A DNA stretch of 64,000 bases, taken from NCBI GenBank assembly GCA_021161465.1, contig JAGHAM010000036.1:25654-89653 (forward strand), written 5' to 3'. Made by a program: the position numbers and the translations under genes. The DNA comes from Candidatus Iainarchaeum sp. (lineage in GTDB: Archaea > B1Sed10-29 > WALL01 > JAGHAM01). The notes under the pieces were generated by a model that was not told the origin of the DNA, ran no database searches, and saw only the letters and a program-made list of their open reading frames with translations. Each line of letters starts with the position of its first letter. Within the stretch, counting starts at the first letter, position 1. Positions 25,526-63,886 of this stretch are shown one piece after another.

Positions 25526-26758
25526 TTATTTCAAACTATACTTATATAAGAATATGCCACTGAGCAATTTTGGCCAGAAATAGGTTGACTTCTGTGGCAT
25601 GGCTATCTCCGGGTTTTTAATCCCGGCATCCGCCACCTCTTTTAATTCGTAGAACTCTACTGGTGCGAGTGAGACAGCGAACTGGTAATCGCCCTTGTCC
25701 ACCAGCTTTTTCATGTTCTTAAGCCCTTCCTCGTTGCCAGGGAAATAGTTAAAGTAGTGCTTATCCTTGAGCTTATCGGGGGATAAACCTAACTCTGGGA
25801 AGAGAATATGTTCCTGAAGGATGCTTGTGTCCAGGCGCGCCACAGCGTCCCCCCTTACCTGTTCAAGCAGACTCTCCCTGGCGCTTAGCTTTGTAGCCTT
25901 ATCCTTGAAATAAAAGATGAATGAGCGCTTCTCAGGAATTTTTAGCCCGTCAGTAGGTGTAATTTCAAATTTGCCTTCTAGCCGTTTGGGGAAATTCTCA
26001 AGCTTTTCCTCTGGGACCCCCCCAACCACCCTGTCATATGGCAGTATCTTCGCGCTTTCGGAAGGAGAGATGTATGTCTGCACATACTTCTGGCCCATCA
26101 CGAGCGCGCAGTGATAGCGGTGGTGGCCATCAGCTATGTAAACATTCTCCCTGGCTATGAGGTCGTGGATTCTTCTTCCAGGGGGCGAGTTTTCTGGAAT
26201 TCTCCACACACTGTTTGTTATCCCGTCCATGTCGGAAGTTCTTTCAAAATCCGTGGCGAATGAGCAAAGCGGTTTCAGGGTTGAAATCTCGTTAAGAGTT
26301 TCAAGTAGGTCCTCATTTTTGTCTTCAACTACTCCAAAAACAACACCGACCTGGTAGCCTAGCGCTTCTCTGAGTTTCTTCCTGTCTGTTACCTTGTTGT
26401 CGAAAGTTTTCTCGTGCCTGACGACTTTACCCTCTGAGTAGTCCGAGACTTCAAGGGCGAGCATCACACCTATGCGCGACCCACTTTCAAATTCCTGTTT
26501 GTAAACGTAATAGCATGGCTCGTCATCCTCAACCAGAAGATTTTGTTTTTTGAATTCTTCAAGTGCTGCACGCGCGTTTTCATACCTGGCTTCCCCCTCT
26601 CCTTTTGGCCTTAGATGTATGTGGATAAGGTTTTTCCTTGATGAGAGAACTTCATAAAGCTTGCTGTCGTGCGAGATGACATCATAAGGTGGCGCGACGA
26701 ACTCGGATATGGCATTCTCTGATGGCCTCAGCCCGATTAAGCCTTTATTTTCTGGCAT
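25526..26758 (-). CDS. DUF1015 family protein
   Basis: 410 residues from the ATG at 26758, chosen because GGGGGAT lies 4 nt before it; an upstream in-frame stretch lacks a ribosome site. Conserved features are GLRPSE, APPYDVIS, RHEKTFDNKVTDR and VYIADGHHRYH. The DGHHR signature resembles that of the ParB/sulfiredoxin-like fold, which includes the serine kinase SerK. The gene leads the serine cluster DUF1015 - aminotransferase - serA. No serB-like phosphatase is visible here. The family has no proven activity that I know of. Confidence 0.88.
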   Translation of the reverse strand: MPENKGLIGLRPSENAISEFVAPPYDVISHDSKLYEVLSSRKNLIHIHLRPKGEGEARYENARAALEEFKKQNLLVEDDEPCYYVYKQEFESGSRIGVMLALEVSDYSEGKVVRHEKTFDNKVTDRKKLREALGYQVGVVFGVVEDKNEDLLETLNEISTLKPLCSFATDFERTSDMDGITNSVWRIPENSPPGRRIHDLIARENVYIADGHHRYHCALVMGQKYVQTYISPSESAKILPYDRVVGGVPEEKLENFPKRLEGKFEITPTDGLKIPEKRSFIFYFKDKATKLSARESLLEQVRGDAVARLDTSILQEHILFPELGLSPDKLKDKHYFNYFPGNEEGLKNMKKLVDKGDYQFAVSLAPVEFYELKEVADAGIKNPEIAMPQKSTYFWPKLLSGIFLYKYSLK

Positions 26759-39051: not shown

Positions 39052-39080
39052 ATATTGTGGTAGAAGCGCTCCCGCCGGGA

Positions 39081-39277
39081 ATTCCACCTAACGGATTGCG
39101 TAGCAATCCTTTGCAGGTTTAGAGGTTCGTTCTCGACCATAGGTCCAGAACGTGTGCAACCCTTCTGGTGCACCCTTTGTGCACCCTTTGTGCACCCATC
39201 CTTCCTGCGTATCGGGTGGCCTTGTGCCACCCCTGCAGGTTTAGAAAGGGTGCAACCCTTCTAGTGCAACCAATCTT
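39081..39277 (-). other. T-loop (59/60) intron of tRNA-Arg, 197 nt
   Basis: Shares with the tRNA-Gly T-loop intron an AAGGGTTGCACCCTTTCTAA segment, an AACCTGCA segment, the GGATTGCTACGCAATCC hairpin and the 3' end AGGTGGAAT. Between them is an insert holding a GGGTGGC/GCCACCC hairpin and a tandem repeat of 11 nt. Ends were set by restoring a 7-base T-loop. Confidence 0.75.
39168..39197. repeat. Tandem repeat, 11-nt unit inside the tRNA-Arg intron
   Basis: GTGCACCCTTT occurs twice and a third partial copy, GTGCACCC, follows directly. The GTGCA core is also found in other parts of the same intron, so local duplication probably enlarged it. Confidence 0.85.
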
Positions 39278-39321
39278 TTTGAACCCGGGCTCCAAGCTCC
39301 GCAAGCTTGTGTTCTTTCCGT

Positions 39322-39341
39322 GCTTCGCGCTAGCGCGAAGC
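39322..39341. repeat. Perfect 20-bp palindrome in the tRNA-Arg D-loop intron
   Basis: GCTTCGCGCTAGCGCGAAGC is its own reverse complement. In RNA it would form a GC-rich stem of 8-9 bp that brings the two ends of the intron together. Confidence 0.9.
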
Positions 39342-39478
39342 AATCCAGGCTATACTACGGGAGCGCGTTGTAATTTATGTTGACAGAATTATTAAAAACC
39401 AAAGCATGTTGTAATACAGTTTTTACTCCTTGCAGCGCTATCTTTTTAAAACCCTAAACCTAAAATATAGCTCCTTAA

Positions 39479-63325: not shown

Positions 63326-63470
63326 GTGATATAACCTAAATACAGGAGAAGGGCCCGTAGCTCAGTCTGTATGTGAATAATCACATACCTGCTCTGGCAG
63401 AGCACCAGTTCGCTTAGGCGAGGTGTAGCTCTTAATCCGCCAGGAGATACCTGGCTGCCGCGGGTTCAAA

Positions 63471-63589
63471 ATAAGGGGCACCTACGGTTCCCCCTTATAA
63501 GCCCCTTCCCTTAATGGGATGGAAAGCAGTAAGGGCGTCATGTGTTCCTTATAAGCCCCCTCCCTTGATTACTAAGTGGGGGTGGAGAC
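63471..63589 (+). other. T-loop (59/60) intron of tRNA-Lys, 119 nt
   Basis: Starts ATAAGGGG, which pairs with CCCCTTAT (63491-63498), and ends GTGGAGAC, close to the AGGTGGAAT end of the Gly and Arg introns. It contains two copies of a 20-nt unit. Ends are set by restoring a normal T-loop. Confidence 0.75.
63493..63566. repeat. Direct repeat, 20 nt, in the tRNA-Lys T-loop intron
   Basis: CCTTATAAGCCCCYTCCCTT at 63493-63512 (Y is T) and at 63547-63566 (Y is C), one mismatch, 34 bases apart. Suggests growth of the intron by internal duplication. Confidence 0.9.
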
Positions 63590-63650
63590 TCCCGTCGGGC
63601 CCTTTACTTTCTAAAACATTAAAAAGAGGAAAAGCGAAAAATACGTTAGT

Positions 63651-63886
63651 GCGCCAGTAGTCTAGCCTGGAACAGCTGCAAAATCAGCTGGCACTTTGTA
63701 CGGTTGCTACGCAACCATACGGTGCTGGTTGGTTGGGCTGTGGGCAATAGGACTCAAGCTTGCCACTTCCATACGTCTGGAAGCAGACAGCTTGTGGCCC
63801 GGGTTCAAAAAGAAGGGTTGCACCCTTTCTAAACCTGCAGGGGATTGTTACGCAATCCGTAGGTGGAATTCCCGGCTGGCGCACCA
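63651..63886 (+). tRNA. tRNA-Gly(GCC) with three introns, CCA encoded
   Basis: Acceptor GCGCCAG (63651-63657) pairs with CTGGCGC (63876-63882), A73, then encoded CCA (63884-63886). The D-stem GTCT/GGAC is separated by an intron of about 78 nt (about 63671-63748). The anticodon arm CAAGC-TTGCCA ... A-GCTTG is broken at the canonical 37/38 site by 63766-63788 (23 nt, with CTTCC/GGAAG hairpin). The T-arm CCGGG-TTCAAA ... T-CCCGG is broken by 63810-63869 (60 nt). Mature length is 72 plus CCA. D-loop intron ends are uncertain by 1-3 nt. Confidence 0.88.
63810..63869 (+). other. T-loop (59/60) intron of tRNA-Gly, 60 nt
   Basis: Contains AAGGGTTGCACCCTT, AACCTGCAGGGG, a GGATTG/CAATCC hairpin and the end AGGTGGAAT. 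All of these recur in the tRNA-Arg T-loop intron 24 kb away. The shortest and perhaps basic form of the family. Confidence 0.8.

Follow-up and report, generated by a model that had tools for sequence, protein, structure and literature searches.

The 64,000-nt stretch analyzed here (the window; positions 25,654 to 89,653 of contig JAGHAM010000036.1, C30:25654-89653 in our numbering) comes from a Candidatus Iainarchaeum sp. genome of 976 kb (G000; 40 contigs, 93% complete) and contains three heavily interrupted tRNA genes, Lys(CTT), Gly(GCC), and Arg(GCG), each carrying a putative intron in the T-loop between positions 59 and 60. ARAGORN and Rfam detected no tRNA in the 64-kb window because the genes are too disrupted for these detectors. 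The genes were parsed under the requirement that a cloverleaf result once inserts resembling the bulge-helix-bulge (BHB) motif are removed, and the following features were obtained, with introns assigned to the sequence families A, B, and C described below:

63651..63883, plus strand: tRNA-Gly(GCC) gene with three introns; cloverleaf once spliced, with a 7-bp acceptor and a 5-bp T-stem
63672..63746, plus strand: Gly(GCC) D-loop intron at about 20/20a, 75 nt, family C, akin to the 37/38 introns of Ala, Ser, and Thr
63766..63788, plus strand: Gly(GCC) 37/38 intron, 23 nt, with a good BHB
63810..63869, plus strand: Gly(GCC) 59/60 T-loop intron, 60 nt, family A
63813..63839, plus strand: family A core AAGGGTTGCACCCTTTCTAAACCTGCA in the Gly intron (hairpin 1 plus linker), with two-sided changes in the hairpin in alignment A1
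63842..63858, plus strand: hairpin GGATTGTTACGCAATCC in the Gly intron
39067..39364, minus strand: tRNA-Arg(GCG) gene
39081..39277, minus strand: Arg(GCG) 59/60 T-loop intron, 197 nt, family A, a composite of two core modules
39234..39260, minus strand: first family A core of Arg(GCG), the same as the Gly core
39093..39109, minus strand: hairpin GGATTGCTACGCAATCC in the Arg(GCG) intron
39316..39342, minus strand: tentative Arg(GCG) D-loop insertion at about 20a/21, 27 nt, with a weak BHB
63351..63603, plus strand: tRNA-Lys(CTT) gene, its anticodon arm also interrupted (sites there inexact)
63471..63589, plus strand: Lys(CTT) 59/60 T-loop intron, 119 nt, family B
63370..63396, plus strand: tentative Lys(CTT) D-loop insertion, 27 nt, read by hand

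Our independent parse returned the same coordinates for the Gly and Arg 59/60 introns as a preliminary description of this DNA, which had presented them as relatives sharing sequence blocks. That sharing is exact: the 27-mer AAGGGTTGCACCCTTTCTAAACCTGCA occurs precisely twice in the window, where shuffled sequences give an expectation of 0.00, and AGGTGGAATTCCCGGC likewise has two copies. Additionally, the Gly(GCC) intron is identical at 60/60 positions to that of a Gly(TCC) gene on contig C12, the two genes being otherwise different. The same description had counted the Lys intron as a relative through its 3' end. The resemblance of that end, GTGGAGAC, to the Gly and Arg ends stands, but it reflects the splice motif rather than homology, since all three ends must pair with T54-T55-C56-A57; the Lys intron itself is of the family B type, ATAAGGGG...CCTTATAAGCCC.

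These inserts are not peculiar to the window, nor do they belong to a general repeat. Across the genome, 37 of 43 tRNA genes (30 parsed cleanly and 13 in part) carry a 59/60 T-loop intron, and a BLAST search with the Gly intron gave 30 matches, 28 of them inside tRNA genes, the other two being a 14-nt chance match and one lying 4 nt downstream of a tRNA-Ile. The latter is a family A-like block outside the tRNA gene, Ile(GAT), at G000:C16:28259-28277. In the 30 clean genes we counted 57 introns (1.9 per gene), with 26 at 59/60, 22 at 37/38, and nine elsewhere, mostly in the D-loop, while 11 of the 13 hand-read genes have a 59/60 intron. By comparison, the archaeal mean is 0.21 introns per tRNA gene, and the densest published set, that of Pyrobaculum calidifontis, which likewise has several BHB introns per tRNA gene, comprises 71 introns in 46 genes, or 1.5 per gene (PMC8450103). 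The present tRNA set is thus the most intron-dense we found in comparison with reported sets. T-loops were located by pattern and tRNA genes were parsed in the stretches fetched around the matches, so that the list may be incomplete; several contig breaks (C20:1, C25:1, C34:6844, C32:1, C2:1, and C5:1) fall within repeated tRNA introns, which makes the tRNA count a lower bound. A free BHB-motif search scored by ARAGORN produced spurious splice choices and was replaced by a template score for the cloverleaf. Some of the hand-read genes are truncated at contig ends, and splice sites 5' of the T-arm are placed inexactly in several of them (Lys CTT, Pro GGG, Gln TTG). A tRNA-Cys gene (G000:C10:763-845, L004) has an odd T-loop, GGGGGTGCGACTGCGCAAGCAAATCCCTC, possibly with a short insert near 56/57.

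Several features of the T-loop inserts suggest that they are almost certainly spliced introns of the BHB type. Thirty genes parse cleanly into a restored cloverleaf after insert removal, and 30 of 35 T-loop introns place, 1-3 nt before the 3' site, four nucleotides complementary to T54-A57, in the variants TGGA, TGAA, TGAG, or TGGG with TTCA and CGAA with TTCG in tRNA-Gln. The outer helix corresponds to the T-stem, the 5' bulge to A58 and A59 plus the first intron base, and the 3' bulge is 3 nt in about half of the 35 introns. Predicted folds retain the T-stem and, in most cases, pair bases 54-56 to the intron 3' end. Families A and B follow a common plan, in which a hairpin lies directly behind the 5' site, followed by a TAARCCY-like linker and a second hairpin abutting the central helix. 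No Rfam match to a self-splicing intron was found in the window, and a search of the introns for box C/D guide RNAs yielded no exact C box.

Clustering resolved two main T-loop families, A and B, in addition to family C at 37/38 and in D-loops, with the separation of A from B lying well above shuffles (cut-off 36 against a null maximum of 26). The Lys intron entered clustering, folding, and likeness tests with one surplus A at its 5' end, which left its family assignment unaffected. Family A comprises 18 T-loop introns and one at 37/38 in His, its hosts being Gly, Phe, Ile, His, Leu, Met, Pro, Gln, Arg(GCG), Ser, and Thr; family B, with 11 introns at first clustering and later 14, occupies Ala, Asp, Glu, Lys, Val, the other Arg, and some Leu and Ser genes, so that both families occur within the Leu, Arg, and Ser isoacceptors. 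The comparison of intron with tRNA likeness proposed as a check in the preliminary description revealed that the two disagree: intron 5' likeness did not follow host exon likeness (Spearman-based Mantel r 0.06, p 0.28 for A; r 0.01, p 0.44 for B), whereas 3' ends tracked the host weakly (family B, r 0.28, p 0.02). The T-loop sites have only GGTTCRAA in common, and the His tRNA of this genome carries the same family at 37/38 and 59/60, where the exon flanks differ. Long introns consist of repeated modules joined into composites, and a pair of Ser genes is distinguished by one 83-nt intron module with a 19-bp direct repeat at its borders. Taken with these patterns, movement of introns between tRNA genes is very probable, in line with the earlier suggestion; homologous exon flanks, also part of that suggestion, cannot be the sole route, because members of the same families also interrupt anticodon loops, in His of this genome and in Asp, Glu, and Ser of relatives.

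The machinery encoded by the genome is simple. A single EndA gene of 170 aa matches residues 3 to 169 of Methanocaldococcus jannaschii EndA with the catalytic Tyr, His, and Lys positions kept; that alignment shows no insertion comparable to the loops of crenarchaeal or ARMAN enzymes, and the protein closely resembles the EndA of intron-poor relatives. It would accordingly be of the M. jannaschii alpha4 type, a homotetramer judging by its likeness to 1a79. One RtcB is present. A weak match on C38, considered as a second endonuclease, proved to be a 372-aa frame that looks like TruD rather than EndA. Among the 16 genomes of the class with an EndA match, 15 have a single copy; G016, the sole genome with two (L185, L186), also has few tRNAs matching the standard model (12).

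We consider it probable that archaeal, protein-spliced BHB-type introns at 59/60 have multiplied across the tRNA genes of this one genome and were spread and homogenized by DNA recombination. The T-stem, the 4-bp helix, and the two bulges would place both cuts, with one EndA cutting and one RtcB joining. Because T54-T55-C56-R57-A58 appears near-constant in all tRNAs, one intron could fit them all; copies may then have spread and been homogenized by ectopic gene conversion between intron-bearing tRNA genes, under selection that would preserve the ends at the splice sites. Reaching the anticodon loop would take a further event, perhaps recombination via an excised, RtcB-ligated intron. Recombination at the DNA level is favored, if only somewhat, as the main route because of the module bounded by direct repeats, a recombination signature, the mosaic composites, and the absence of any reverse transcriptase (RVT_1) from a genome that is 93% complete. 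That absence counts against transposition at the RNA level, in which excised intron RNA would re-enter another tRNA by reversed EndA/RtcB chemistry, be copied to DNA, and recombine into the genome. Such a route would explain why family homology starts exactly at the 5' splice site and why one family occupies both 59/60 and 37/38, but the 3' ends vary by site and fit the local exon, unlike a simple reinsertion, and we regard it as unlikely.

The distribution among 19 genomes of the class bears on the age of the introns. Good matches to the standard tRNA model number six in this genome, five in G012, 12 in G016, and 13-44 in the rest, while the family A model matches 39 times in this genome, seven times each in G001 (a sister genus) and G012, and 0-2 times in the others. 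Near-identical intron copies occupy at least six tRNAs of G012, and family B occurs at 37/38 in Asp and Glu of G007 and in Ser of G010. From this uneven distribution of the two families, it follows that the intron-rich state is recent and patchy and that it either had more than one origin or spread by lateral transfer. Ancient introns passed down with each tRNA gene and homogenized through concerted evolution, without gains at new sites, would account for the presence of family A in G001 and G012 and for its occurrence in the orthologous Leu, Gly, and Ile T-loops of both G000 and G001. Nevertheless, most genomes of the class keep many standard-model tRNAs, the same families stand at 37/38 in relatives, and the families differ between G000 and G001 in Ala and Arg T-loops (family A in Ala(CGC), Arg(CCT), and Arg(TCT) of G001, family B in G000), which renders purely vertical inheritance quite improbable.

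The surroundings of tRNA genes in relatives raise a further alternative, namely that integrative or hairpin-type DNA elements with tRNA attachment sites left the hairpin modules behind as relics, which were later tamed as introns. Compatible with it are repeated tRNA 3'-end fragments beside tRNA genes and the placement of family B elements in the trailers of G007 tRNAs, and a model of this sort has been proposed for Caldiarchaeum (PMC3293823); on the other hand, this genome has no Y1 transposase, viral contigs contained no match to two intron patterns, and the block is essentially restricted to tRNA genes here, leaving this origin very improbable. At L252 (C3), L251 (C36), and L254 (C34) of G007, family B elements directly follow tRNA-Val and tRNA-Ala genes that have no intron and occupy 37/38 in Asp and Glu, and the tRNA-Asp gene is followed by several copies of its own 3' end. 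Partial tRNA copies, either 5' fragments or repeated 3' ends, adjoin full tRNA genes at L231, L233, and L234 in G012 and at L239 in G008, and L231 (G012:C33) also contains, in reverse complement, the long hairpin GGGGCACCTACGGTTCCCC that family B shows in the Lys, Leu, and Arg introns of G000. At L236 (G012:C1:1650-2200), the anticodon intron of a tRNA-Pro(CGG) seems to enclose a circularly permuted tRNA-Pro (AGG) split at the T-loop; one and the same stem of roughly 15 bp joins the two, and ARAGORN accepts both after in-silico splicing. Named bacterial and archaeal genomes contained no match to the exact intron pattern. In a PurL-based search, the top matches, at about 57%, were Hydrothermarchaeota-, Bathyarchaeota-, and Latescibacterota-like.

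Several observations weigh against the interpretation of protein-spliced introns spread by DNA recombination. The precursors of families A and B fold as a three-way junction at the 5' side rather than with a strict textbook 5' bulge, and the 3' bulge is 4 nt in 13 of the 35 T-loop introns, a length not expected to be preferred by an alpha4 enzyme. The splice sites were assigned from pairing and cloverleaf restoration and are in this sense predictions. Copies at 37/38 are hard to obtain by simple gene conversion, and moves between the T-loop and the anticodon loop are unexplained by recombination alone. Furthermore, introns of one family are not independent observations, and the assembly, at 93% completeness, could have missed a second EndA subunit or a reverse transcriptase.

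The kind of intron is already known; what sets this case apart is that a single universal site dominates, that the families are modular, that introns are so dense, and that the endonuclease is simple. The comparison with Thermoproteales drawn in the preliminary description was apt: in tRNA intron transposition there (Fujishima et al. 2010, per PMC4090602), spread likewise occurs within one lineage, and two traits of the Thermoproteales type, disagreement between intron and tRNA likeness and the same intron at different tRNA positions, recur in our genome. The present introns are distinguished by the dominance of 59/60, their modular, composite build, and a single short EndA, while intron-rich Crenarchaeota have an alpha2beta2 EndA (PMC4090602). 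ARMAN/Micrarchaeum is similarly a small-genome archaeon with non-canonical tRNA introns, but its EndA is a broad-specificity epsilon2 type with an ASL loop (PMC12397907), in contrast to the 170-aa protein here, which is almost insertion-free relative to M. jannaschii. The Caldiarchaeum model of tRNA-Thr disruption also combines intron gain with scattered tRNA fragments (PMC3293823); unlike in that model, no recombinase-bearing element was found attached to the introns of this genome.

Non-canonical and multiple tRNA introns have been tied to alpha2beta2 or loop-bearing EndA, whereas the introns of alpha4 organisms are few and confined to 37/38 (PMC4090602, PMC12397907). In the present genome, the densest intron set we found in comparison with reported ones is paired with a single short EndA of the alpha type, which does not differ from the EndA of intron-poor relatives. 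A tentative possibility is that the T-loop introns constitute a minimal mobile RNA/DNA element tuned to the universal UUCRA, with a fixed 5' hairpin-plus-TAARCCY core, a host-fitted 3' end, an ordinary single-subunit EndA, and a three-way-junction substrate; if true, it would break the rule linking non-canonical introns to alpha-beta or loop-bearing endonucleases. If the introns are spliced, mature tRNAs would show GGTTCAAATCC joins. Since intron-rich, intermediate, and intron-poor genomes coexist in one class, intron gain, enzyme specificity, and the route of spread are directly testable within it.
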